From the NCBI GenBank assembly GCA_036511855.1, contig DATCBN010000074.1, positions 1 through 50,136 on the forward strand: a DNA stretch of 50,136 bases, in the 5' to 3' direction. Within the stretch, counting starts at the first letter, position 1. The number at the start of each line of letters is the position of its first letter. Below, in pieces: positions 17,188 through 35,719 of this stretch. The notes beneath the pieces were generated by a model. That model saw only the letters and a list, made by a program, of their open reading frames with translations, made no database searches and was not told the DNA's origin. The translations under genes and the position numbers were made by a program. The stretch is from Candidatus Eremiobacteraceae bacterium (GTDB lineage: Bacteria; Vulcanimicrobiota; Vulcanimicrobiia; Eremiobacterales; Eremiobacteraceae).

Positions 17188-17199
17188 GCCACTGGGCGC

Positions 17200-18246
17200 T
17201 TAAAGCGTTTCGGGTTCATCTCTGGCGACACCGATCAGCAAGCCACTCGGGTTGCCCGGAACGGTGCCGATGGGTGCGCACGTCGGATACTCGACCTCGC
17301 CTGCGACGTTATTCCCGCCATCTGCGTAGAAATAGTGATGCTGTGTGCGGTTGATATCAAACGAAACCGGGTCGCTGGCGCCGAGGGCGCAGGAAGTGGG
17401 CGACCCGAAATCCGGAGGTTCGAACGTGAGCACGTCGCCGCCGCCGGCACCCTCTTGATCTAGCAGGACGACATCTTCATCGTCGGCCGATCGCAAGCCG
17501 CCGGGGAATACAAAGGTCGCGCCGGTTGCGACAAATGAACCACACTCACCGGCCGGACAACTTCCCTTATAAAGGGTGTTAGTACTGTCGTCGAAGTAGA
17601 CGGTGCCGTCTTTTTGCACCGTCAAGAAATAGTCGAACGCGCCGTTGGCGTTTGGAAAGTTGCCGACAAACGTTCCATCTCTGCGCCAGGTCGAGATGGA
17701 ACCGACACTATCAATTATGTCAAAGATGTTGGTCGCTAAAACGGTGCCGTCTTTCGCGACGGTCACGTCGGCCACGAATTGGCTACCATTGGTCAAGTCG
17801 ATATATGTCTTGAACGGCGACGTTGCGCCCCGGCGGAACACGACCACGTCATCGTCGCCGGTATTGGCCACGTAGAGTTCGTGGGTGGATTCCTTCACGA
17901 ACATGCCTTGTGGGTTGGCCAAACCTTTCGTAAGCTGGCCGCACGGGACTTGGCCGGCGAAATTCCCCTTGTAGATGTCGATCAGGTTGTTGTTGAAGTC
18001 GGAGACGTATTCAATGGGACCCGCAGGTGGGCATCTGTTGAAATCCTTGAAGTGAAGACCCGTGTTGAGGTTGACCTTGAGCATTCCCATCGGGCTCAGA
18101 ACCACCGGTATACGCACCATCAGCGAACGCGCGTTGCCTTGCGGGGCTGATGGTTTCGGAGCGATCGCCGAGCCGTTGGAGCAGCCGGCGAGCAGGACCA
18201 ACACCGCGAGCGCGCTCAGAGATTTGGCGGAGATTCGAATGTGCAT
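17200..18246 (-). CDS. Beta-propeller-like lipoprotein, array paralogue 1
   Basis: A 348-residue putative lipoprotein (lipobox LAGC) of an NHL/Vgb-like propeller type; enzyme or ligand unknown. Blade-like repeats include IEYVSDFNNNLIDIYKGNFA, HELYVANTGDDDVVVFRRGA, VTVAKDGTVLATNIF and DYFLTVQKDGTVYFDDSTN. Six cysteines besides the lipobox are conserved through the family: NRCPPAG, VPCGQ, SCPAGEC (two), TSCALG and YPTCAPIG. It ends PETL. GAGGAG precedes the ATG. It is very close to paralogue 2 at 18309-19355, suggesting the most recent duplication of the array. A surface-exposed role in binding or adhesion is a guess. Confidence 0.8.
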   Translation of the reverse strand: MHIRISAKSLSALAVLVLLAGCSNGSAIAPKPSAPQGNARSLMVRIPVVLSPMGMLKVNLNTGLHFKDFNRCPPAGPIEYVSDFNNNLIDIYKGNFAGQVPCGQLTKGLANPQGMFVKESTHELYVANTGDDDVVVFRRGATSPFKTYIDLTNGSQFVADVTVAKDGTVLATNIFDIIDSVGSISTWRRDGTFVGNFPNANGAFDYFLTVQKDGTVYFDDSTNTLYKGSCPAGECGSFVATGATFVFPGGLRSADDEDVVLLDQEGAGGGDVLTFEPPDFGSPTSCALGASDPVSFDINRTQHHYFYADGGNNVAGEVEYPTCAPIGTVPGNPSGLLIGVARDEPETL

Positions 18247-18308
18247 TGGATGCTCTCCTCAACTTTAGATGAGCCGCGAACAGCGAATATCCGGGCTCAC
18301 CCTACTGC

Positions 18309-19355
18309 TTAAAGCGTTTCGGGTTCATCTCTGGCGACACCGACCAGCACGCCGCTCGTGTTGCCCGGCACGGTGCCAATGAGTGCGCAACTCGGATAGT
18401 CAATCTCGACCGCAATGTTATTTGGGGCGTCAGTATAGAAGTAGTGATGTTGTGTCCGATTGATATCGAACGAAACTGGGTCGCCGGCGCCGATGGCGCA
18501 TGAGGTGGGGGATCCGAAATCCGGAGGCTCGTAGGTGAGAACGTCTCCACCGCCGGCGCCCTCTTGATCTTGGAGGACGACATCGTCCCCGTCAGCCGAC
18601 CGCACGCCGCCGGGGAAAACAAATTTCGCACCGGTTGCAACGAATGAACCGCAAGCGCCGGCTGGGCAACTCCCCTTATATAGGTTGGGCGTGTTGTCGT
18701 CGAAGTAGACCGTGCCATCCTTTTGGACTGTCAGAAAGTAGTCTAAAGCGCCGTTCGGATTTGGAAAGTTACCGACGAACGCTCCGTCTTTATGCCATGT
18801 TGAGAGCGATCCTACGTTGAAGCCGACGTCGACGATGTTTGTCGCCATGACGGTGCCGTCTTTTGCAACTGTGACGTCGACGGGAAGTTGACCGCCGGCG
18901 GTCGAGTCGATGTACGTCTTGAACGGCGACGTCGCACCTCTGCGGAATACCACCACGTCGTGGTCGTTTGTATTGGCCACATACAGTTCGTGCGTGGATT
19001 CTTTCACAAACATGCCCTGCGGGTTGAGCAATCCGCTCGTAAGCCGGCCGCATGGGGTCTGCCCCGCGAAATTCCCTTTGTAGATGTCGATGACGTTGTC
19101 GTTGAAGTCGGAAATGTATTCGATGGGACCCGCCGGCGGACACCTGTTGAAGTCCATGAAGCGCTGGCCCGAGTTGAAATTGACTCTGAGCATGCCTATC
19201 GGGCTCAGAACCACCGGTATACGACCCATCAGCGTACGCGCGTGGCCTTGCGGGACTGATGGTTTCGGCGCGATCGCCGAGCCGTTGGAGCAGCCTACAA
19301 GAAATACAAGCGCCACCGCTGTGCTCAACGCTCGAATCGGGGTGCGGGTAACCAT
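18309..19355 (-). CDS. Beta-propeller-like lipoprotein, array paralogue 2
   Basis: 348 residues when started at ATG 19355, which follows CGAGGGGAG and begins the signal peptide MVTRTPIRALSTAVALVFLV with lipobox VGC; the frame is open 33 nt further upstream without a ribosome binding site. It matches paralogue 1 over its full length, including MFVKESTHELYVAN and GGVRSADGDDVVLQDQEGAG. The six family cysteines are present (NRCPPAG, TPCGR, SCPAGAC, TSCAIG, YPSCALIG). The 62-bp gap to paralogue 1 holds nothing but the next gene's ribosome binding site. Confidence 0.8.
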   Translation of the reverse strand: MVTRTPIRALSTAVALVFLVGCSNGSAIAPKPSVPQGHARTLMGRIPVVLSPIGMLRVNFNSGQRFMDFNRCPPAGPIEYISDFNDNVIDIYKGNFAGQTPCGRLTSGLLNPQGMFVKESTHELYVANTNDHDVVVFRRGATSPFKTYIDSTAGGQLPVDVTVAKDGTVMATNIVDVGFNVGSLSTWHKDGAFVGNFPNPNGALDYFLTVQKDGTVYFDDNTPNLYKGSCPAGACGSFVATGAKFVFPGGVRSADGDDVVLQDQEGAGGGDVLTYEPPDFGSPTSCAIGAGDPVSFDINRTQHHYFYTDAPNNIAVEIDYPSCALIGTVPGNTSGVLVGVARDEPETL

Positions 19356-19404
19356 GTGATATCTCCCCTCGAATACGATAAAAAACAACGTCGACTATGT
19401 GAAG

Positions 19405-19430
19405 TAGTAGGGCGAGCAACGCTCGCCCTA
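19405..19430. repeat. Palindromic repeat hairpin, GGGCGAGC variant
   Basis: TAGTA, then GGGCGAGC-AAC-GCTCGCCC, then TA. The arm change A to G is matched by the T to C change in the other arm, so pairing is kept. It lies between array paralogues 2 and 3. Confidence 0.8.
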
Positions 19431-19461
19431 CCGCCGGAATAACGAGATACGTTACGTCGCG

Positions 19462-20505
19462 TTAGTTCAACGTCTCGGGATAGTCCTTGGCCATGCCAAT
19501 CGGCAGACCGCTGGAATTTCCCGGAACCGTGCCGATAGGAGCACAACCCGGATAGCCCAACTCTGTACCTTGGTTCAGGCCTGCGTCGGCGATGAACGCG
19601 TGGTGTTGCTTGTGATTGATGTCGAAGCTTACGGGATCGACTCCGCCGACGGAGCATGAATCACCGCTCGTGAAACTCGGGGGTTCGTAGGTGATCAACG
19701 CGCCGCCGCCTGAAGCGCTCTGGTCATCCAGGACGAGATCTTCATCGTCCGCCGAACGTAGGCCGCCCGGGAACGCGAACGTCGCGCCTGTGTTTGAGAA
19801 CGAACCGCAAGTGCCCGCGGAGCAGCTGCCCACGTACAACGCGAACGTGTTGTCGTCGTAGTACAGGGTGCCGTCTTTTTGAATCGTCAAGAAATAAGAA
19901 TTGGCACCGGCTTGGTTCGGGATGTTGCCGATGAATGTGCCATCTTTTTTCCACGACGAGATCGACCCGGCGCAGGAGCCGCCGAAGATGTTGGTCGCGT
20001 AGATGTAGCCGTCGAGCGAGACCGTAACGTCAACTGGGAATTGGCCGCTGCAATTCGGGTCGGTGTACGTCTTGAACGGCGCCTTTCCGCCTCTGTGGAA
20101 GGCGACGACATTGCCGGCGCCGGTGTTGGCCACGTAGAGAACGTGGCGCCGGACGATCATTCCTTGCGGATTGACCACGCCTGTGAGTTGTCCGCACGGA
20201 GCCTGGCCTGCGAACGGCACCTTGTAGATGTTGATCGTGCTTGCGTTGAAGTCCGACATGTAGACGATGGGACCCGCAGCGGGGCAGGCGTTGAAGCTCG
20301 CTTTGCGGTTGGGCGTGCCGAGCTGACGCAGCTTCAGCATTCCGACGGGGTTCAAAACGGTCGGAACCCGGCCGCTCATCGCCTGGAAGTGATGACTCTG
20401 CATCGTTGAGGATGTCGGAGCGATCGCCGAGCCGCTTGAGCAGCCGGCAAGGAGTGCCAACGCTGCCGCCGCGCTCAGCAATTTGACTGAGGTTGGAATA
20501 CGCAT
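19462..20505 (-). CDS. Beta-propeller-like lipoprotein, array paralogue 3 (extra-cysteine subtype)
   Basis: 347 residues, signal peptide MRIPTSVKLLSAAAALALLA with lipobox LAGC; AGGAGAGC precedes the ATG. It has the family blades (GPIVYMSDFNASTINIYKV, VLYVANTGAGNVVAFHRGG, SISSWKKDGTFIGNIPNQA) and the common cysteines (NACPAAG, APCGQ, SCSAGTC, DSCSVG, YPGCAPIG). Two additional cysteines occur in one blade, in DPNCSGQF and FGGSCAGS; only paralogue 7 shares them. It ends PETLN. Function unknown. Confidence 0.8.
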   Translation of the reverse strand: MRIPTSVKLLSAAAALALLAGCSSGSAIAPTSSTMQSHHFQAMSGRVPTVLNPVGMLKLRQLGTPNRKASFNACPAAGPIVYMSDFNASTINIYKVPFAGQAPCGQLTGVVNPQGMIVRRHVLYVANTGAGNVVAFHRGGKAPFKTYTDPNCSGQFPVDVTVSLDGYIYATNIFGGSCAGSISSWKKDGTFIGNIPNQAGANSYFLTIQKDGTLYYDDNTFALYVGSCSAGTCGSFSNTGATFAFPGGLRSADDEDLVLDDQSASGGGALITYEPPSFTSGDSCSVGGVDPVSFDINHKQHHAFIADAGLNQGTELGYPGCAPIGTVPGNSSGLPIGMAKDYPETLN

Positions 20506-20627
20506 TTGGAAGCTCTCCTCGACATTGTGCGAGTTACCAAAGGGGAAAACCCCGCGTACCTTTACGCCGGAGTTTCCCGACTGCGCTCCGATGTAGGCAT
20601 GTCCCTCTAGGTCTCGGACGAAGAAGG

Positions 20628-20649
20628 CAAGGCAAGCAGTGCTTGCCCA
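20628..20649. repeat. Degenerate palindromic repeat copy
   Basis: AGGCAAGC-AGT-GCTTGCCC, a copy with one mismatched arm base and no recognisable TAGTAC end, in the gap between array paralogues 3 and 4. The remainder of this gap on the minus strand forms the 5' leader of paralogue 3, GC-rich and possibly structured. Confidence 0.6.
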
Positions 20650-20664
20650 CGCACTAACGAGTCG

Positions 20665-21720
20665 TTACAGCGATTCGGGCGCGTCGACCGCGGCTCCAAT
20701 CGGAAGGCCGCCCGAATTACCGGGAACGGTGCCGATCGGCGCGCACGACGGGTACGAAATTTCGCCCCCAACGTCGTTGATAGCGTCGGCGTAGAAGACG
20801 TGCTGCTGTGTTTTGTTTATGTCCATGGCATCCGGGTCGCCGCCGCCGATGGCGCACGACACGCCGGTCGGAAACGATTCATAGGTGATCAGCGCGCCGC
20901 CGCCGGGAGCGTTCTGATCGATCTGCACGACGTCTTCGCCGTCAGCCGATCGAAGGCCACCGGGAAATGCGGTCGTCGCACCGGTCGAGGTGAATGTGCC
21001 GCACGCGCCGTTCGGGCAGCTCCCCGTCCACAAAAGTCCGGCATCGGACGTGTTGTCGATGTCGTTATAATAAAGTGTGCCGTCTTTTTGCGCGGTCACG
21101 TCCAGGCCCTCAAAACTGTTGGGCATCGGAAAGTTGCCGACGAATGCGCCGCCCTTGTGCCAGGTTGAGATGGACCCCGCTTCGTTGAAGTTCGCTTGAA
21201 AGATGTTAGCCGCGATGACGGTGCCGTCTTTTGCGACGGTGACGTCGTCCGGATTTTGCAAACCCGGATCGGTGTACTGCTTGAACGGCGTCTTCGCGCC
21301 GCGATGGAACACGAGGATGTTGTGCCCGCCGGTGTTGGCCACGTAGAGATCGTGTGTGGAACCCAGCACGAACATGCCTTGCGGCTGGACCATGCCGCCG
21401 GGGGACAACTGGCCGCATGGCGCTTGACCCGCGAACTTGCCTCTGTAGATATTGACGACGTTGTTGCTGAAGTCGGAAATGTATTCGATGTTGCCTGAAG
21501 CTGGGCACCTATCGAAGCTTGTGAAATGATGGCCTGCATTGAGGTTGATCCTGAGCATGGCGAGTGTACCCAACGCAACTGGTATGCGGCCCATCAATGA
21601 ATGCACGCGACCTTGCGCCCCGAACGGCTGGGAAGCAATGGTTGAATTGGCGGAGCAGCCCGCGAGGATCGCTAACGCCGCCGCCGCGCTTAGCGCTTGA
21701 AGCGGGGTGAGGATACGCAT
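20665..21720 (-). CDS. Beta-propeller-like lipoprotein, array paralogue 4
   Basis: 351 residues, signal peptide MRILTPLQALSAAAALAILA, lipobox LAGC, with GAGGGGAG before the ATG. Blades include GNIEYISDFSNNVVNIYRG, DLYVANTGGHNILVFHRGA and GTLYYNDIDNTSDAGLLWTG. The six family cysteines are kept (DRCPASG, APCGQ, SCPNGAC, VSCAIG, YPSCAPIG). It shares with paralogue 5 the longer loop containing WTGSCP and the NDIDxT motif, so these two form a subgroup. Ends APESL. Confidence 0.8.
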   Translation of the reverse strand: MRILTPLQALSAAAALAILAGCSANSTIASQPFGAQGRVHSLMGRIPVALGTLAMLRINLNAGHHFTSFDRCPASGNIEYISDFSNNVVNIYRGKFAGQAPCGQLSPGGMVQPQGMFVLGSTHDLYVANTGGHNILVFHRGAKTPFKQYTDPGLQNPDDVTVAKDGTVIAANIFQANFNEAGSISTWHKGGAFVGNFPMPNSFEGLDVTAQKDGTLYYNDIDNTSDAGLLWTGSCPNGACGTFTSTGATTAFPGGLRSADGEDVVQIDQNAPGGGALITYESFPTGVSCAIGGGDPDAMDINKTQQHVFYADAINDVGGEISYPSCAPIGTVPGNSGGLPIGAAVDAPESL

Positions 21721-21802
21721 TGGAATTCTCCCCTCGACGGTTACGAGAAATGGCCGTCGATTTGCGCGGCGGTTATGGCGGAATCCTCTCCGGCGGGGAA
21801 AT

Positions 21803-21885
21803 GGGCAAGCGATGCTTGCCCTAGTACGGCTTGCCCTAGTACGGCTTGCCCTGGTACGGCTCGCCTTGAACGGCTTGCCCTAATT
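21803..21885. repeat. One palindromic hairpin followed by four progressively decayed half copies
   Basis: A full hairpin GGGCAAGC-GAT-GCTTGCCC with TAGTAC (21803-21827) is followed by successive half units GGCTTGCCCTAGTAC, GGCTTGCCCTGGTAC, GGCTCGCCTTGAAC and GGCTTGCCCTAATTA, each 14-15 nt. It looks like slippage or stepwise tandem duplication of the 3' half with mutation. It lies between array paralogue 4 and the first EXORDIUM-like gene. Confidence 0.85.
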
Positions 21886-21894
21886 AACGAACGA

Positions 21895-22818
21895 CTACGG
21901 TGAGCTAAGCACGCAAGCGCTTGCGGCGTTGCTCCACAGGGGTTGCACCGCGAACGTGCCGGTTCTTAGAACGGTGTTGCCGAGACCCTGCCATGCGCAG
22001 ATGTCGCCGATCTCACCGAACGAGTTGTTGTACCAGCCGCTGGCGGGTCGCGGATCGGTCTGGCTCTCCGCGAGTTCGTGGCCTTCCACGATGCTGACGC
22101 CATCCAAGATTCCCGGCTGACCCGGGTTGACGAAGTTCTCGCCGCAGTTCTGGCCGGCATCGGTCATGTACGGGATGTTCGAGAATGAGATGATCCCGTC
22201 GGGCGTGGTCGTAGCGTCGTGATACGCGCAGAATTGTGAACCAAATCCAGGCGTGTTGTGGTTGTGCGGCGTGGCGACGACATACGAAGCGTTCTTCCTG
22301 TATCCGAAGTGCGCTTCGGCGGCAGCGGCCTCGGTTGCTACTTGCGCATCGCTCGGGCTGGCCGGCACGGACGAGGGATCGACCCATGTGCCTTTGAGCT
22401 GTCCGGACGGATTCTGGATCTTGTGCTGCACGCCGCCGACGATCTCGTAGTATTGATGATCGGTGTTCAGCCACGCGCCCTTGCCGACGCCCTTAAGGAA
22501 GTTGGTCATGTAGGCTTGTTCGCCTGACGGGTCGCTGCCCGAGACGTTGAATCCCCAGTACACGACGAAGATGCTGGGCGTGCGCTGGATCAAGCCCCCG
22601 TTGTAATGAAGCGTTTGCGGGGCGTCCAACATCGGGCCACGTGAGAATGCCGTGCGCATGTAGATTCTGGAACCGTTTTGCGCCATCGGTGCGCCGGCCG
22701 CGTGTACCGACTGCGTGCCGGCATGCTGCAGCGACGGCACAGAGCTGCCGTTGCCGCTGCACGCCGCAAGCGCAACCGCCGCGAGTCCGACGATGGCGAG
22801 TTTGAGTTTGTGCTGCAT
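21895..22818 (-). CDS. EXORDIUM/PHI-1-like or HExxE-motif secreted lipoprotein, copy 1
   Basis: 307 residues. Signal peptide MQHKLKLAIVGLAAVALAAC with lipobox AAC. Conserved blocks: TPSIFVVYWGFNVSGSDPSG near the N-terminus, SYVVATPHNHN, then QFCAYHD, and GVSIVEGHELAESQTDPRPA with GEIGDICAWQG. The HELAE...DP...WYNN...EIGDIC order recalls plant EXORDIUM/phosphate-induced-1 proteins (HELAE...NP...WY...EIGDLC); a metallopeptidase-like site is another possibility, but HExxE is not the HExxH zincin motif. Four mature cysteines are conserved with copy 2. It lies inside the propeller-lipoprotein array on the same strand. Function uncertain. Confidence 0.75.
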   Translation of the reverse strand: MQHKLKLAIVGLAAVALAACSGNGSSVPSLQHAGTQSVHAAGAPMAQNGSRIYMRTAFSRGPMLDAPQTLHYNGGLIQRTPSIFVVYWGFNVSGSDPSGEQAYMTNFLKGVGKGAWLNTDHQYYEIVGGVQHKIQNPSGQLKGTWVDPSSVPASPSDAQVATEAAAAEAHFGYRKNASYVVATPHNHNTPGFGSQFCAYHDATTTPDGIISFSNIPYMTDAGQNCGENFVNPGQPGILDGVSIVEGHELAESQTDPRPASGWYNNSFGEIGDICAWQGLGNTVLRTGTFAVQPLWSNAASACVLSSP

Positions 22819-22865
22819 GATCGGGGTCTTCTCTCTTCCTTAACAAGTGAGCGTGTAGGTGTCGT

Positions 22866-22900
22866 GCAAAGAGCCCGCTGTTTAAAGGCGGGCTCTTTGC
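22866..22900 (-). terminator. Stem-loop terminator between the two EXORDIUM-like genes
   Basis: A perfect 13-bp stem GCAAAGAGCCCGC / GCGGGCTCTTTGC with a 9-nt loop, some 30 nt downstream of the stop of copy 2 on the minus strand. It lacks a long U tract after the stem, so its strength is uncertain. Confidence 0.6.
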
Positions 22901-22928
22901 GTTACCGTGAACTCACGGAGCGATCAGA

Positions 22929-23870
22929 TTACGGGGTGTGCAGTGTGCACGTCGAGGTCTTGTTGCTCCAGAGCGGCTGCATCGCGAATTTGCCTGTGGA
23001 GATGGTGATGTTGCCAAGACCCTGCCACGCGCAGATGTCGCCGATTTCGCCGTAGTTGTTATTGTACCAAGCGGTGGCGAGGCCTACTTCCGGATCGGTC
23101 TGTGACTCGGCTTCTTCGTGACCGGTGACGATGCTCACGCCGTCGAGAATTCCAGAGCTACCCGGGTTGACCGAGTTCTCGCCGCAGTTTCCACCAGCGT
23201 CGGTCATGTAAGGGATGTTCGAATAGGAGATTTCGCCGCCGTTGGAAGCGGTGGGGCTGTGGTAGGCGCAGTATTGCGTGCCGAAGCCCGACGAGTTGTG
23301 GTTGTGCGGCGTCGCGACCATGTAGTTGGCATTCTTGTTATAGCCGAAATGCGATTCAGCAGAGGCTGCTTCGGCGCGGATCTGGGCATCGGTGGGCGAC
23401 GACGGTACCGATGACGAGTCGACCCAGGTGCCTTTGAGCTGTCCTGTCGGATTCTTGATCTTTTGATTGACGCCGGCCTTGGTTTGGTAGTACTGCTTGT
23501 CGGTGGCCAACCACGTGCTGCCGCCGAGTCCGTTGAAGAGCGCCGTCATGTATGCTTGTTCGCCGGACGGGTCGCTGCCGGAGACGTTGAATCCCCAGAA
23601 TACGATGTAAATCGCAGGTGTGCGTTCGACCGGGCCACCGAAGTATTGCAGCGTCTGCGGGGCATCCGATGTCGGGCCTTGCGAGTTGCGCGTGCGCATG
23701 ATGTGCACTTTGCTGAGGTCGATGCCTGCTTGTGACATCGATCCGCCGGTGTGACCGATCGACTGCGTGCCCGAATGTTGTAGCGTCGGCATCGAGCTGC
23801 TGTTTCCGCTGCAGGCAGTCATCGCCAAAGCGACGAGTCCTACGGCCGCTACTTTGAGTGTGTGCGACAT
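22929..23870 (-). CDS. EXORDIUM/PHI-1-like or HExxE-motif secreted lipoprotein, copy 2
   Basis: 313 residues when started at ATG 23870, which begins a normal signal peptide (MSHTLKVAAVGLVALAMTAC); an ATG 108 nt upstream is in frame but the added segment is not signal-like. AGGAGG lies about 12 nt before the start, slightly far. The protein aligns with copy 1 throughout: TPAIYIVFWGFNVSGSDPSG, YMVATPHNHN, QYCAYH, GVSIVTGHEEAESQTDP and GEIGDICAWQG. The motif here is HEEAE. Cysteines in QYCAYH, GGNCGEN, DICAW and STCTLH match copy 1. Probably a duplicated pair with related roles. Confidence 0.75.
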   Translation of the reverse strand: MSHTLKVAAVGLVALAMTACSGNSSSMPTLQHSGTQSIGHTGGSMSQAGIDLSKVHIMRTRNSQGPTSDAPQTLQYFGGPVERTPAIYIVFWGFNVSGSDPSGEQAYMTALFNGLGGSTWLATDKQYYQTKAGVNQKIKNPTGQLKGTWVDSSSVPSSPTDAQIRAEAASAESHFGYNKNANYMVATPHNHNSSGFGTQYCAYHSPTASNGGEISYSNIPYMTDAGGNCGENSVNPGSSGILDGVSIVTGHEEAESQTDPEVGLATAWYNNNYGEIGDICAWQGLGNITISTGKFAMQPLWSNKTSTCTLHTP

Positions 23871-24074
23871 ACTAAGATTGATCCTCCTCACGAGATGAAA
23901 ACTCGGGTGGTGCGTGGACTTTGGATTCGCGTGAATTACATTTGGGCCAACGCATCCCCTTCGCATATGCGAAACCATATGCTATACGATGTGCAGCAGA
24001 ATCTTTTCAGCGTTTTTGGAAGAAAAATTATCATGCGGCCGAACAATATGAGACGACCGAATCTTGACAAATAG

Positions 24075-25121
24075 CTAGAGCGGTTCGTGCGGATCGGATG
24101 CTGCGCCAATCGGTAAAGCGCCAGCTTGCATTGGAACCGTGCCGATGGCTGCGCACGTCGGATACTTGATCTCGCCGCCTACTCCACCGGCATCTCCGTA
24201 AAACAAATGTTTCTCAGACTTGTTTATGTCCATGCCTATTGGGCCGACGATGCCGTTGCCGATGATGACGCAGAACGTGAAATTCGGAAACGATTGGAAT
24301 GTGGTCACGGTGAGCAATATCTGATCGACCTGAACCACCGCTTCACTTTGCGCTGAACGCAGCCCGCCGGGAAATACGCTGACCGCGCCGGTCGACGTGA
24401 ACTTGCCACATACGCCCGCCGGACAACTGCCCGTCCATAAAAGGCCCTGGCCCAAAGTGGCGTCGATGTCGTTGTAGTACAACGTGCCATCCGCTTGCAC
24501 GGTGAGGAACAGTCCTTCCAGGTCGTGGACCATCGGGTAATTGCCGACGAAGGTTCCGCTTTTCGTCCAAGTCGAGATCGAGCCCGCGGCGCTGCCGTCT
24601 TGCTTCAATAGGTTGGACGCGATCACGGTTTTATCGTGGGCCACGGTGACGTCGACCGGATATTGTCCGGTCGGATCGGTATACGTGGTGAAATGCGTCG
24701 TTGCGCCTCTGTGGAACACGAGGATGTTGCCGGCGCCCGTATTGGCAACGTAAAGATTGCCGTTGGGCCCGACAAAGAGCCCTTGCGGACTTTGCAACGT
24801 CTCGGCGATTTGACCGCAGGCGGCTTGACCCGCGAATTTGCCGGCAAATATCTCGACGACATTGTTGTTGAAGTCGGAGATGTATTCGATGGGACCCGCG
24901 GCGGGGCACGTATCGAAACCTTTGAAATGATGGCCGACGGTCGGATGGACGCTGAGCATGCCGAGCGGCCCCACGGCCGCGGGAATGCGGGTCATCGGTG
25001 ATCGCACGACGCTTTGCTGCACGTACGGTTTCGGCGTGAACGCCGGTCCGCCGGCGCAACCGGAAAGCAGCGTTAGCGTTGCGGCTGCAGTCAGAACGAG
25101 TGCCGGGATTGCAGGACGCAT
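24075..25121 (-). CDS. Beta-propeller-like lipoprotein, array paralogue 5
   Basis: 348 residues from ATG 25121, preceded by CGGAGTCTTGAA; an open frame continues 147 nt upstream but it overlaps the end of paralogue 6 and is Arg-rich. Signal peptide MRPAIPALVLTAAATLTLLS, lipobox SGC. Blades include IEYISDFNNNVVEIFAGKFA, LYVANTGAGNILVFHRGA and SISTWTKSGTFVGNYPMVHD. The six cysteines are kept (DTCPAAG, AACGQ, SCPAGVC, FCVIIG, YPTCAAIG). Shares the WTGSCP loop with paralogue 4. Ends PHEPL. The 204 bp upstream of the stop (23871-24074) show AT-rich sequence and no convincing gene. Confidence 0.8.
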   Translation of the reverse strand: MRPAIPALVLTAAATLTLLSGCAGGPAFTPKPYVQQSVVRSPMTRIPAAVGPLGMLSVHPTVGHHFKGFDTCPAAGPIEYISDFNNNVVEIFAGKFAGQAACGQIAETLQSPQGLFVGPNGNLYVANTGAGNILVFHRGATTHFTTYTDPTGQYPVDVTVAHDKTVIASNLLKQDGSAAGSISTWTKSGTFVGNYPMVHDLEGLFLTVQADGTLYYNDIDATLGQGLLWTGSCPAGVCGKFTSTGAVSVFPGGLRSAQSEAVVQVDQILLTVTTFQSFPNFTFCVIIGNGIVGPIGMDINKSEKHLFYGDAGGVGGEIKYPTCAAIGTVPMQAGALPIGAASDPHEPL

Positions 25122-25145
25122 TTCAAGACTCCGGTCGATACAGAA

Positions 25146-25175
25146 GCGGGGCGGACGCCGTAGCGTTCGCCCCGC
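25146..25175 (-). terminator. Stem-loop terminator after array paralogue 6
   Basis: GCGGGGCGGACGC / GCGTTCGCCCCGC, a 13-bp stem with one G-U pair and loop CGTA, about 30 nt downstream of the stop at 25207 on the minus strand and just upstream of the paralogue 5 start. Only a weak U-rich tail follows. Confidence 0.55.
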
Positions 25176-25206
25176 GTGTCGATGACTGAATCGACGGTTT
25201 GTTCCT

Positions 25207-26301
25207 TTAGTTCGAGGTCGGAGTATCGATCGCGACGCCGATCGGTTCGCCGCCCGACGTGAAGACACTACCCATCAGCGTGCAGCCGTTCCCGGCGCCC
25301 GGATTGTAGTGACTCATTTCAAATGCCTGGCCCTGGCCGGCATCTGCGTAGAAGAGGTGGTGTTGCGAGTGATTGATGTCGATGGTGACCGGGTCGACTG
25401 CGCCTTCGGTGCATACGCCGACGGGGGTGGCGAAGTTCGGAGACGTGTAGGAGCTCACGGTTCCGCCGCCGGAGGCGCTTTGATCGTCTAGGTCAACGTT
25501 CTCGCTGTTAGACGAACGGATGCCGCCGGGGAAGAGAAGCGACGCAGCGGTGTCGGCGAACGCGCCGCAGACGCCGGCCACGCAGCTGCCTTGCGACATG
25601 ACTGCAGAGGCGAAGCCTGAGCTAAAGCCGTCGTAGTACGTCGTGCCGTCCTTTTGGATGGTCACGAAAAAGGTTTCGGTGCCATCCGAGTTCAGATAGT
25701 TGTTGATCACGGCTCCGGTGTGCTTGTTCCATGTCGAGAGCCCGCCCACGCCGGCGTTGCTGATGATGTTAGAAGCGATGACGACGTTGTCGTTGGAGAC
25801 CGTCACGCCGGCCGGGTAATTACCGCCGTTGCTTGGATCCGAGTAGGTTATGAACGGGGTCGTTGCGCCTCTCTTGAACGCCAAAACATTGCCCCCGCCA
25901 TTAGGGTTTCCTGCGGTATTGGCAACGTAGAGGTTATCGTCATGGACCGTGATGCCTTGCGGCTCGACGAATCCGGTGAGGATTCCGCACGCTGATTGGC
26001 CGGCCAGATTGCCGGCGAAGATGTTGACGGTGTTGTCGGCTGCATCGGAGACGTACACAAGTATGCCGGTGGCCGGGCACGCATTGTAGCTCGCGCCATG
26101 GTAACCGGGTCGCGCGACGTGACCGATTCTTAGCATTCCGACCGGATTCAGAACGGAAGTGCTTCTACCGTTCACGCTGTGCACGTGACTTTGTGTGGAT
26201 GAGGGCATCTTCGGCGCGAGCGCCGAGCCGCTTGAGCAGCCGGCGAGCAATACGAGTGCTCCCGCTGCGCTCAGCGCTTGGATTGTGGTAGGAAAACGCA
26301 T
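25207..26301 (-). CDS. Beta-propeller-like lipoprotein, array paralogue 6
   Basis: 364 residues, signal peptide MRFPTTIQALSAAGALVLLA, lipobox LAGC; GAGGAGG precedes the ATG. Blades: ILVYVSDAADNTVNIFAGNL, NLYVANTAGNPNGGGNVLAF, VTVSNDNVVIASNII and GTETFFVTIQKDGTTYYDGF. The six cysteines are present (NACPATG, SACGI, SCVAGVC, GVCTEG, NGCTLMG). It is the most divergent member at the C-terminus, with a NPGAGNGCTLMGSVFTSG segment and end TPTSN. It shares an upstream leader element with paralogue 7. Confidence 0.8.
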   Translation of the reverse strand: MRFPTTIQALSAAGALVLLAGCSSGSALAPKMPSSTQSHVHSVNGRSTSVLNPVGMLRIGHVARPGYHGASYNACPATGILVYVSDAADNTVNIFAGNLAGQSACGILTGFVEPQGITVHDDNLYVANTAGNPNGGGNVLAFKRGATTPFITYSDPSNGGNYPAGVTVSNDNVVIASNIISNAGVGGLSTWNKHTGAVINNYLNSDGTETFFVTIQKDGTTYYDGFSSGFASAVMSQGSCVAGVCGAFADTAASLLFPGGIRSSNSENVDLDDQSASGGGTVSSYTSPNFATPVGVCTEGAVDPVTIDINHSQHHLFYADAGQGQAFEMSHYNPGAGNGCTLMGSVFTSGGEPIGVAIDTPTSN

Positions 26302-26366
26302 CTGGGTTTCCTCCTCAACGATTAAGGGGGCGCACTCCGGGAAGATCGGAGAAAATCACCGTACTT

Positions 26367-26388
26367 TTTGCAAGCGGTAGCTTGCAAA
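26367..26388. other. Leader hairpin upstream of array paralogue 6
   Basis: TTTGCAAGC-GGTA-GCTTGCAAA, a perfect 9-bp stem. Its inner arms GCAAGC/GCTTGC match the core of the abundant palindromic repeat, but the outer bases and loop differ. It lies about 65 nt upstream of the start, between the conserved leader element and the ribosome binding site. Confidence 0.45.
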
Positions 26389-26398
26389 CAAAGCAGAA

Positions 26399-26500
26399 CA
26401 GCAGCCTTCCCGAACGAGGGAGGTACGCTTGGTCCACTCTGCGTTTCGGGTCCGGCGGAATCCTCCGGGAAAAAAACCGCCGGGAAGAACTTAGAACTTT
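26399..26500 (-). promoter_or_regulatory. Conserved leader element, copy A
   Basis: About 100 nt on the minus strand that recur before paralogue 7 (27998-28097). Conserved pieces, reading toward the gene, are AAAGTTCTAA, a GGAGGATT segment, CCAAGCGTACCTC and GTTCGGGAAGG(C/T)TGCT, separated by a variable GC-rich part that can pair. It ends about 98 nt before the start of paralogue 6. I could not match it to a riboswitch class I know. A structured RNA leader or a shared promoter region are both possible. Confidence 0.4.
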
Positions 26501-26602
26501 CTTCCCATATGACAAGCGAAAATGAAGAGGCGGCCATCAAAGCGCTCGCTTAGTCGATTTGACGATCGACAGTGTAAACGATTAGATTAGTTGATCGACG
26601 AG

Positions 26603-26735
26603 GGGCAAGCGATGCTTGCCCTAGTACAAAAAAACGAATGGGCAAGCGATGCTTGCCCTAGTACGTAAGAACGACGGGGCAAGCGATGTTTGCCCTAGTA
26701 CGAAACGACGGGGCAAGCGATGCTTGCCCTCCTAC
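26603..26735. repeat. Four palindromic repeat hairpins in a row
   Basis: Hairpins GGGCAAGC-GAT-GCTTGCCC with TAGTAC at 26603-26627, 26640-26664 and 26677-26701, the third with arm change GCTTG to GTTTG, and a fourth with CTCCTAC at 26711-26735. Spacings are 37, 37 and 34 bp. They fill the gap between array paralogue 7 and the leader of paralogue 6. Confidence 0.9.
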
Positions 26736-26755
26736 AGAGAACGAGTAAACGAAAA

Positions 26756-26784
26756 GGCGGGCGCCGAAGCGCCCGCCCTTTTTG
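26756..26784. terminator. Strong rho-independent terminator after array paralogue 7
   Basis: GGCGGGCGC-CGAA-GCGCCCGCC, a perfect 9-bp GC stem with a stable CGAA tetraloop, flanked by AAAA on one side and CTTTTTG on the other, so it can terminate in both directions. It lies 28 nt beyond the stop at 26812 on the minus strand. Confidence 0.85.
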
Positions 26785-26811
26785 TCGATTTACGAATCGA
26801 CGGTTGCTGGA

Positions 26812-27876
26812 TTACTGCAGGTTCTCTGCACGATCGACGGCGACGCCGATCGGGAGACCGCTGGTGTTGCCAGCAATCGAACCCTTCGGAGCGCAAGCGC
26901 CCGTCGTGTTCGTGTACTTGAGCTCGGTCAGTTGGTCGAGGCCAGCGTCCGCGAGGAACATGTGGTGTTGCGAGTGGTTGACGTCGAAGCTGACGTCGTC
27001 AGTACCGGCGTGGTTGCAGACGCCGCCGCTGCCGAAGGCCGGCGGTTCGAACGTGGTCACTGGGCCGGTAGTGCTGCCGTTGCCCTGGTCATCCAGAGCG
27101 AGGTCTTCGCCGTCTTCCGAACGAACGCCGCCGGGGAACGTGAACGTTGCGCCGGTGTTGCTGTTTGAGTTGCAGCTGCCAGCGGTGCAGGTTTGCTTGA
27201 ACAGCCCGGTGGGATCGTCATAGTACATGGTGCCGTTGTTTTGGATTGTCAGGAAGAACGTTTCGTTACCGTCGGGATTCTGCATGTTGCCGATCAATGC
27301 GCCGGAGTTCTTGTTCCACGCGGAGATCGAACCTTCGCAGCTGCCACCGAAGATGTTTGATGCGTACACGATGTTGTCGCTCGAGACCGTGACGTCAACG
27401 GTGAACTGGCCGCTGCAGCTCGGATCCGTGTAGGTTATGAACGGCGTCGTCGCGCCTCTGTGAAAGGCCAAGACGTCGAGGCCGCCGGTGTTGGCAACGT
27501 AGAGGTTGCCGGCCTTGACGATCATGCCTTGGGGATTCGCCAATCCTGTGAGCTGTCCGCAAAGAACGAGCGGCGACGTGTTTCCGCCTTTGTAGATGTT
27601 GACGACGCCAAGGTTGAAGTCGGACATGTAGATCAGGGTGCCGGCGGCCGGACAGGCATTGAAGCCAACCTTGTTGTTCGGGTGGGTCCCAAACTGTTGC
27701 ACTTTCAAGAGGGTACTCGGGGATACCGCTGCCGGGATGCGGCCGCTGTTCATCACGCTGTGATGGCCTTGCAGCGCGGAGCCTATCGGCGCGATCGCCG
27801 AGCCGCTGGAGCAACCAGCAAGCAGCGCTAATGCTGCCGCTGCGCTCAGCGCTTGGATTGGGGTGGGAATACGCAT
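26812..27876 (-). CDS. Beta-propeller-like lipoprotein, array paralogue 7 (extra-cysteine subtype)
   Basis: 354 residues from ATG 27876, preceded by GAGGAGAG; the frame is open 126 nt upstream into the leader. Signal peptide MRIPTPIQALSAAAALALLA, lipobox LAGC. Blades: LIYMSDFNLGVVNIYKGG, NLYVANTGGLDVLAFHRGA, SISAWNKNSGALIGNMQNPD and ETFFLTIQNNGTMYYDDPTG. Common cysteines are in NACPAAG, LCGQ, TCTAGSC, GVCNHAG and GACAPKG. The two extra cysteines DPSCSGQF and FGGSCEGS match paralogue 3. It is the first gene of the array in transcription order. Function unknown. Confidence 0.8.
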   Translation of the reverse strand: MRIPTPIQALSAAAALALLAGCSSGSAIAPIGSALQGHHSVMNSGRIPAAVSPSTLLKVQQFGTHPNNKVGFNACPAAGTLIYMSDFNLGVVNIYKGGNTSPLVLCGQLTGLANPQGMIVKAGNLYVANTGGLDVLAFHRGATTPFITYTDPSCSGQFTVDVTVSSDNIVYASNIFGGSCEGSISAWNKNSGALIGNMQNPDGNETFFLTIQNNGTMYYDDPTGLFKQTCTAGSCNSNSNTGATFTFPGGVRSEDGEDLALDDQGNGSTTGPVTTFEPPAFGSGGVCNHAGTDDVSFDVNHSQHHMFLADAGLDQLTELKYTNTTGACAPKGSIAGNTSGLPIGVAVDRAENLQ

Positions 27877-27997
27877 TTGGATTTCTCTCCTCGACTTTAA
27901 GTGAGTCACTAAAGTAGCGCCCTGGATAACCGCTTTATCGAGAAATCGCCATTGTTTTGCGAGCATCGTTGTAAATGCTTGCGGACGATGGCTGAGA

Positions 27998-28097
27998 AGC
28001 AACCTTCCCGAACGGTGAGGTACGCTTGGGCCTGGGTGCGCGTCGGCGGCTACGTAATCCTCCGAGAATAATGCTGCCCGAGTATATTTAGAACTTT
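27998..28097 (-). promoter_or_regulatory. Conserved leader element, copy B
   Basis: Second copy of the element at 26399-26500, about 122 nt upstream of array paralogue 7. AAAGTTCTAA, CGGAGGATTACG, CCCAAGCGTACCTC and GTTCGGGAAGGTTGCT are retained while the middle differs, a pattern expected of a structured leader or regulatory site. The surrounding 27877-28204 gap holds no other feature I can support. Confidence 0.4.
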
Positions 28098-29993: not shown

Positions 29994-30986
29994 ATGTTCT
30001 CCGCCGACGCCAAGGATGAGATCGCGCGCGCGCGCTTCGAGCGCGAGTGCTGTCCTGCGGTGTTCTTGCGCTCGCTCGCCGGCTTTTCGGCCAGAATCGG
30101 GGCCGCGTCCCATGGACGACATCCCGTACTAGGGCAAGCATCGCTTGCCCATGGGAAATTGCCCGTACTAGGGCAAGCATCGCTTGCCCATGGGAAATCG
30201 CCCGTACTAGGGCAAGCATCGCTTGCCCATCGGTCGCTCATCGTCCGCACCGAGCGCGGCGCGATCGCGCGCGCGGCGCTCAAGGCGGCGAAAACCGTGG
30301 GGATCATCGCGCACGCGACGCACGTGGCCGGCACGCGCTTTCACGACGGCAACATCGTCACCGTGACTTGCGATGCGCCGCTCTCCACGCGATTGAATCC
30401 GCCCGCCCGCAGTTGCTGCCGTCGCGCGTGGCTTCGCGGCGCGTTCTTGGCGTGCGGATCGGTATCGGATCCGGCGCGCGGCTATCACCTCGAGTTGTAC
30501 TGCCGCGACGACGCCGCAGCGCGCGCGCTCACGCAAGGGTTGACCGACTTACGCATCGATGCGGGCATAACGCGGCGCCGTCACCGCGCGCTCGTGTACG
30601 TCAAGGGCGTGCAGGCCGTGGCCGACTTGCTCGCACAAATGGGCGCGACGAATGCCGTTCTGATCCTCGACGATCTGCGCGCGCGGCGCGAGACGAAAAA
30701 TGTCATCCGGCGCGCCGTGAACGCCGAGACCGCGAATGCGGCGCGGGCCGGCGCCGCGAGCGCGCGTCAGCGCGAAGCAGCCGTCGCGCTTTTGGGAAAA
30801 GCAGGATTGAAGATGCTCACGCCGCCGATTCGCGAAGCGGCGCGGCTGCGCGTAGCGCATCCCGATCTCACGCTTGCGGAACTAGCCAAGCGGACGAAGC
30901 CGGCCGTGACAAAAGCCACGATGGGCTATCGTCTGCGCGCGCTGGAACGCCTTGCCGGCAGCGGCAAGCGGAGTATGCGCAAGTAA
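29994..30986 (+). CDS. whiA: WhiA-family DNA-binding regulator carrying an in-frame triple repeat insertion
   Basis: 330 residues. WhiA couples to cell division or sporulation control and has a LAGLIDADG-like N-terminal domain plus a C-terminal helix-turn-helix. [20 protein letters not shown] is the expected N-terminus. The C-terminal HTH is visible in [20 protein letters not shown] and [15 protein letters not shown]. Residues 45-79 are foreign: VLGQASLAH occurs three times (45-53, 58-66, 71-79), exactly the translation of three palindromic repeats. They fall between GFSARIG and [16 protein letters not shown], where normal WhiA has a short beta turn. The reading frame is intact across the insertion. 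It is followed by gap, pgk and tpiA, the classical whiA context. No strong ribosome binding site is visible. Confidence 0.9.
30126..30228 (+). repeat. Three palindromic repeats inside whiA
   Basis: Copies at 30126-30150, 30165-30189 and 30204-30228, each GTACTA followed by hairpin GGGCAAGC-ATC-GCTTGCCC. The period is exactly 39 bp (13 codons) and the spacers after copies 1 and 2 differ by one base (CATGGGAAATTG and CATGGGAAATCG), so the array grew by tandem duplication. All are in the orientation and frame that read V-L-G-Q-A-S-L-A-H. Confidence 0.95.
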
Positions 30987-34083: not shown

Positions 34084-35719
34084 CAAGGTATTAGGGCAAA
34101 CCGTACTAGGGCAAGCATCGCTTGCCCATCCCGCGCAAGCCCCCGTACTAGGGCAAGCATCGCTTGCCCATCCAAAATCCGATCCCGTACTAGGGCAAGC
34201 ATCGCTTGCCCATCCCCACGTCGTCCTTTGCATACTCGACGGCTTCGGCTGCTCCAAGGAACTGCGCGGCAACGCGATCGCCGCCGCCGGCATGCCTCGC
34301 TGGCACGCCCTCGCCAAAAATAATCCCTACACGGAAATCCGCGCCGCCGAAGAGAGCGTCGGGTTGCCGGTGGCGCAGCAGGGCAACAGCGAAGTCGGCC
34401 ATTTGAATCTCGGCGCCGGCCGTGTGGTGCTGCAGACCACAACGCGGATCGACGATGCCATCAATCGCGGTGTCTTTGCGAGCAACCCTGCACTCCAGCA
34501 ATGCTTCGCGCATGTCAAGCGGACCGGCGGCGTGCTGCACTTGCTCGGCTTGGTCTCGCCCGGCGGCGTGCACTCGTCGATGAGACACCTCTTCGCGCTC
34601 ATGGACGCCGCAAAAGAGGCGCGTGTGCCGGTGCGGATCGCGGCATTTTTAGACGGCCGCGACACGCCACCCCGAAGCGCCGGACCGTATCTCGCGGAAG
34701 TCGAAGCGAAATGCCGCGAAAATGGCAATGCCGCCATCTCGATGATCTGCGGGCGCTTCTATGCGATGGATCGCGACAAGCGCTGGGACCGCACCGAAAA
34801 AGCGTACGATGCGCTCGTGCGCGGCAAAGGTCTGACGGCAGATTCGGCGGCAGCCGGATTGGAAGCCGCCTACGCGCGCGGCGAGGACGACGAGTTCGTG
34901 CTACCTACAATGATTGGCAACCCAATCGTGGACGGCGATGCATGCCTCTTCTTCAACTTCCGTCCGGATCGTGCGCGGCAACTCACGCGCGCCTTCTCCG
35001 ATCCGAGCTTCACAGAATTCCCCGTCGAACATTTCTCCGATTTCGTCTTCGCGATCATGACGCTGTACGATGCCACGTTCACCAATCCGGTCATGTTCGG
35101 CAAAATTCTGGAGCATCGCACGCTCGGCGAGATCGTAGCAGATGCCGGGCTCGCGCAACTCCGTCTGGCGGAGACGGAAAAATACGCGCACGTCACGTAT
35201 TTCTTTAGCGGCGGCCGCGAGCAGCCGTTCCCAGGCGAAGAGCGCGTGCTCATTCCTTCCGCACGCGATGTCGGCACGTACGACAAGAAACCGGAAATGC
35301 GCGCGAGAGAAATAACAGAAGCCGCGCTCTCGGCGGTCAAGTCCGGCAAATTCGCGCTGATCGTGATGAACTACGCGAACCCCGATATGGTGGGCCACAC
35401 TGGCAAATGGGGACCGATCATCGAGTCACTGCACGTCGTGGACAACTGCTTGGGACAACTCGAAGATGCGGTGCGCGCGGCCGGCGCCATCTTGATCGTG
35501 ACCGCAGACCACGGCAACGCCGAAGAAAAGATCGACCTCGCGACCGGCACGGAATTGACCGCCCACACCATCAACCCGGTGCCGTTCGTAGTTGTCGGCG
35601 CGAAGGGTGTGACCAAACTCAAGTCCGGCGGCGCGCTTTGCGACGTGGCGCCGACGATCTTGGCGTTGATGGACCTGGCGCAACCGCCCGAGATGACCTG
35701 CCACTCGCTGCTTAGCTGA
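34076..35719 (+). CDS. gpmI: 2,3-bisphosphoglycerate-independent phosphoglycerate mutase with a repeat-encoded N-terminal extension
   Basis: 547 residues, about 40 more than usual. The first ATG overlaps the tpiA end. Residues 5-9 (VLGQT) are a partial repeat, and VLGQASLAH then occurs at 10-18, 24-32 and 38-46, translated from three palindromic repeats. The normal enzyme begins at HVVLCILDGFG (48-58). S105 in GNSEVGHLNLGAGR is the phosphorylated serine; FLDGRDTPPRS, NFRPDRARQL, YANPDMVGHTGKWG and VTADHGNAEEKID carry the other substrate and Mn ligands. The enzyme core is complete. It should convert 3- to 2-phosphoglycerate and is the last gene of the glycolytic run. No alternative start exists between the repeats and the core, so the extension is probably translated. 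Confidence 0.94.
   Translation: MPDKVLGQTVLGQASLAHPAQAPVLGQASLAHPKSDPVLGQASLAHPHVVLCILDGFGCSKELRGNAIAAAGMPRWHALAKNNPYTEIRAAEESVGLPVAQQGNSEVGHLNLGAGRVVLQTTTRIDDAINRGVFASNPALQQCFAHVKRTGGVLHLLGLVSPGGVHSSMRHLFALMDAAKEARVPVRIAAFLDGRDTPPRSAGPYLAEVEAKCRENGNAAISMICGRFYAMDRDKRWDRTEKAYDALVRGKGLTADSAAAGLEAAYARGEDDEFVLPTMIGNPIVDGDACLFFNFRPDRARQLTRAFSDPSFTEFPVEHFSDFVFAIMTLYDATFTNPVMFGKILEHRTLGEIVADAGLAQLRLAETEKYAHVTYFFSGGREQPFPGEERVLIPSARDVGTYDKKPEMRAREITEAALSAVKSGKFALIVMNYANPDMVGHTGKWGPIIESLHVVDNCLGQLEDAVRAAGAILIVTADHGNAEEKIDLATGTELTAHTINPVPFVVVGAKGVTKLKSGGALCDVAPTILALMDLAQPPEMTCHSLLS
34103..34211 (+). repeat. Three palindromic repeats inside the 5' end of gpmI
   Basis: Copies at 34103-34127, 34145-34169 and 34187-34211, with a partial copy (GTATTAGGGCAAAC) from about 34088. 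Spacing is 42 bp twice (14 codons). Spacers differ in sequence apart from a shared CATCC start. All are oriented and framed to read V-L-G-Q-A-S-L-A-H, as in whiA. Confidence 0.95.

Follow-up and report, generated by a model that had tools for sequence, protein, structure and literature searches.

A whiA gene in the window, the 50,136-nucleotide stretch of DNA analysed here, reads without a break through three copies of a palindrome that recurs throughout the genome. This raises the question of whether a REP, a short non-autonomous hairpin repeat, has become part of the encoded protein. Judged from its named relatives, the host is Candidatus Eremiobacterota.

The repeat array in whiA and the site that it occupies

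The locus comprises the following features:

29994-30986, + strand: whiA, 330 amino acids, with an in-frame interruption by a REP array (identified by Pfam/NCBIfam, alignment with relatives and the fold match 3hyi)
30109-30233, + strand: the array, three 39-bp REP units in whiA, net gain about 117 bp relative to same-genus whiA, with borders that cannot be fixed to the base
30126-30152, + strand: REP copy 1, a GTACTA tag and an 8-bp stem GGGCAAGC with loop ATC, encoding VLGQASLAH (residues 45-53)
30150-30164, + strand: spacer between copies 1 and 2, CATGGGAAATTGCCC
30165-30191, + strand: REP copy 2, encoding VLGQASLAH (residues 58-66)
30189-30203, + strand: second spacer (copies 2 to 3), CATGGGAAATCGCCC, differing from the first at one base
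30204-30230, + strand: REP copy 3, encoding VLGQASLAH (residues 71-79)

The 330-codon frame contains no stop codon and no frameshift, the three palindromes included. Its product matches WhiA in both Pfam (PF14527, 7.8e-25; PF02650, 5.3e-18) and NCBIfam (TIGR00647, 2.4e-43), the LAGLIDADG-like domains and the WhiA HTH are both present, and Foldseek returned Thermotoga maritima WhiA (3hyi) as the top match of its structural model. No second whiA was seen in a search of its own genome. The palindrome AGGGCAAGCATCGCTTGCCC occurs in three exact copies (30131-30150, 30170-30189 and 30209-30228, +; period 39/39), and, with the start at 29994, the three VLGQASLAH peptides fall where the earlier note had read them. 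The core of the spacers, CATGGGAAAT, had no occurrence outside the whiA array in the 2.28 Mb examined (74% of the genome), which, together with the single base by which the two spacers differ, fits duplication in place; steps of 39 bp (13 codons) keep the frame. The number of copies could be off, the assembly being a draft. The mRNA of the array is predicted to fold very stably (-68.8 kcal/mol, z -7.08), which might lower translation.

A WhiA match was found in 58 of the 61 genomes searched, own genome counted, and alignment with 21 of these proteins mapped the insert. Opposite the 50 residues present here, the relatives have 5 to 12 residues, and VLGQASLAH is absent from every one of them, including the two from the same genus. 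The net gain in the alignment is about 38-39 residues, equal to three 39-bp units. Thus, the insertion proposed in the earlier note stands, while its size of 35 residues is better given as 117 bp, or 39 residues, because the WhiAs of the same genus fill this position with 12 residues, against 50 in ours. Upstream of the array, identity over residues 1-32 is 59-62% with the two WhiAs of the genus, reaches 75% within the family and falls to about 50% for two more distant members; this part is conserved like the remainder of the protein, with no decay. This bears on the caution raised for N-terminal REPs, that they may lie in a false N-terminal extension (PMC3733652); conservation of residues 1-32 argues that the upstream part is real WhiA.

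An AlphaFold2 model, built from 22 sequences, had a mean pLDDT of 85.9, with residues 37-73 below 50 and the other residues of the N domain mostly above 90. It places the insert in the first half-domain, between the helix of residues 20-31 and the strand of residues 81-86, and not at a beta turn as had been supposed. The model supports a WhiA that would fold round a disordered insert loop with its N domain intact, in agreement with the predicted loop in the first domain.

The element and its RAYT transposases

The consensus of the repeat is GTA[C/G][T/G]A-GGGCAAGC-ATC-GCTTGCCC, an 8-bp stem closed by a 3-nt loop. Three stem types (CA, TG and CG) occur, and the changes between them are paired, so that pairing is kept. 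GTAG REPs carry an unpaired GTAG tetranucleotide at one foot; here the foot varies, being GTACTA in 156/274 and GTAGGA or GTAGTA in 77/274, with GTAGGA in the REPs to the left of the intact transposase gene. When up to 3 mismatches are allowed, the palindrome matches the window 34 times, versus 0 expected; genome-wide (3.07 Mb), there are about 520 copies, versus 1 for a reversed control pattern, and 419 perfect copies lie in the 2.28 Mb examined. The exact family is almost restricted to the genus (52 copies in G001, 75 in G002, next to none elsewhere). Placement is typical for REPs, with 190/386 between convergent genes and 26/386 between divergent ones.

Two genes for Y1 transposases (RAYTs) are present in the genome, each with REPs in inverted orientation at both sides:

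C109:10505-11047 (L109, G000): intact RAYT, a 181-residue frame; two REPs stand to its left, and the copies to its right are degenerate and oppositely oriented
C4, at 15078 (L071:14869-15570, G000): frameshifted RAYT, with REPs in inverted orientation on either side

The intact protein (PF01797, 6.7e-10) has the features by which RAYTs are recognised, namely HxH, the catalytic Tyr, the N-terminal Thr and NP(L/V)(R/K)xG, in the form of HVH, FFVTF and YYITQNPVRAA (NPVR; A replaces the final G). A rayt gene bracketed by inverted REPs is the known RAYT/REP arrangement (PMC2817692), and both loci display it. On these sequence features, the element is a RAYT-associated GTAG-type REP.

RAYTs of G001, G003, G004, G006 and G008 are flanked by hairpins of other sequence, and most of the hairpins read have GTAG feet. 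At six loci of related genera (L099, L094, L102, L096, L097 and L098), each RAYT is flanked by a separate hairpin family, distinct in its stem; these loci make a good series for studying REP-RAYT co-evolution. Three further REPs with period 42 lie at 34100-34228 in the window, in a long open frame just downstream of a triosephosphate isomerase-like gene, and an array elsewhere in the genome (L077, G000 C4:124410-124770) has at least 7 REPs on a 42-bp register. Separately, several paralogous genes are arrayed at 17198-27879 with a spacing of about 1.1 kb, one of which (26812-28002, -) resembles a secreted lipoprotein.

REP copies in other genes of the genome

With genes predicted from codon usage in the same 2.28 Mb, only 12 of the 419 perfect REPs were found inside genes, versus 369 expected by random placement, and three of these 12 are those of whiA. 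Such strong depletion indicates that in-gene inserts are usually not tolerated. The gene for ThpR/LigT (L183:3812-4399, +) has a clean in-frame REP insert of 12 residues relative to its relatives. In the class II ribonucleotide reductase (L084:7400-11965, -), two REP units lie in the C-terminal linker; the G001 and G002 proteins are near-contiguous there without some 21-27 linker residues and the corresponding stretch of G003 is 24 residues shorter, which points to a putative insert of about 24 residues. The same reductase also carries an intein (PF14890/PF14528). REP copies were further seen in the genes for PNP and TilS, in that for the protein at C6:1-936 and in C6:15020-17086, where comparisons are weaker or none are available; PNP and TilS are probably further cases, the TilS comparison being ambiguous, as the relative from G002 is shorter by 16 residues and that from G001 by 3. 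Three-mismatch matches in genes on C57 and C75 were set aside as probably due to chance.

All in-gene copies of the CA type lie on the coding strand and in the VLGQASLA frame, though 4/6 frames of the element are open, and the resulting peptide, VLGQASLA[H/Q], has no Cys and no charged residues. Five genes contain CA-type copies internally; simple counting puts the chance of one shared frame among them at about 1 in 256, and the single-frame pattern is suggestive only. The REP of this lineage might in effect be tuned for reading as protein, RAYT-driven spread of a benign peptide then being a source of new loops, that of WhiA included; we regard this as a rather doubtful extension. With the one-frame pattern across several proteins, it can be tested whether short mobile hairpins truly give rise to new protein segments or are only tolerated debris.

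Origin of the insert and comparison with known systems

Overall, it is very probable that a RAYT-type GTAG REP entered whiA in frame and was tandemly duplicated, giving a disordered loop of about 39 residues in a probably functional WhiA. One REP, presumably mobilised by RAYT, would have landed in the N-terminal LAGLIDADG-like half-domain, in the loop that joins its second helix to its first strand, in an orientation and phase that left the frame open, and slippage or unequal exchange would then have duplicated it in place in 39-bp steps. The product, WhiA with a loop of three VLGQASLAH copies, would, if expressed, probably still fold, bind DNA and work. Entry and tandem duplication of a palindromic element, as first put forward from the letters of the window alone, are thereby supported by the alignment, by the conservation of both flanks and by the structural model.

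We consider it unlikely that whiA has become a pseudogene or is on its way to loss, with the insert open by chance and under no selection, or with only the protein from an in-frame GTG downstream of the array (30297) being made. That GTG and the four open frames of the element would allow it, and dN/dS since the insertion is not obtainable from a single genome; however, 330 codons run without frameshift or stop, the 39-bp units keep the frame, conservation of the first 32 residues and of the C-terminal part matches that of intact relatives, and no second whiA was seen in the genome. Still less probable, in our estimation, is a domesticated insert, either with a selected function in WhiA or acting through mRNA hairpins that regulate whiA translation. 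The three near-identical copies, the very stable RNA fold and the one frame common to all CA-type in-gene copies would suit it, but any tandem palindrome gives such RNA stability, the peptide is conserved in no homolog, and its presence in unrelated proteins fits tolerance over function.

REP arrays are abundant and short-read assembly can miscount them, so that an intergenic array might have been misplaced into whiA; this we hold to be extremely improbable. A misjoin cannot easily yield in-frame WhiA on both sides, and here the same gene continues in the same frame on either side of the array; a search of 74% of the genome placed the inter-copy spacer core in whiA alone; at about 125 bp, the array does not exceed the length of a typical read; and similar inserts occur in ThpR and ribonucleotide reductase. 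For the preferred reading, insertion of a REP followed by duplication, the comparative evidence is unusually complete, since relatives supply the empty site and the resident RAYT supplies the likely mobiliser.

That a mobile repeat becomes part of a protein is known but seldom documented, and the whiA case is a clear one. Our search found no literature joining Eremiobacterota with REPs and, for whiA with palindromes, no title bearing on REP insertion in this gene; as far as found, whiA as a target, the host phylum and the restriction to one frame have no precedent. Enterobacterial RU repeat units in genes (Delihas 2007, PMC2759123), MITE-like and of 103-168 bp, are likewise small mobile repeats translated as protein parts, although their abstract mentions no RAYT link, unlike the REP described here. 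In-frame palindromic elements were described in Rickettsia before 2013 (PMC10969869); these RPEs reach about 150 bp, and the short RPE-4 and RPE-6 are CGTC-type elements that lack a transposase of their own (PMC10969869, PMC3733652). The parallel drawn with them in the earlier note is apt for the outcome, in which unrelated proteins gain a recurring peptide from palindromic repeats lying in frame in their genes, but not for the name of the element, which is more exactly a RAYT-associated GTAG REP: it is 25 bp long and GTAG-type, comes with a RAYT, and is set apart from RPEs by its tag (GTAG/GTAC) and host (Eremiobacterota).

The closest known system is that of the in-gene GTAG and CGTC REPs described in 2013 (PMC3733652), including clusters that encode 43-82 residues. 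The GTAG REPs among them lie inside ORFs singly or clustered, are largely assumed to be neutral and to sit in loops or linkers, and were listed for Proteobacteria, Cyanobacteria, Chloroflexi and PVC. Ours resemble them in being short, GTAG-tagged, high-copy hairpins that flank RAYTs and have copies in ORFs. They differ in that the foot is mostly GTAC, the phylum is outside that list, the main text of that study does not name whiA as a target, and three head-to-tail copies stand in one frame; they bring an uncultured phylum and a conserved DNA-binding protein into the range of in-gene REP insertion.
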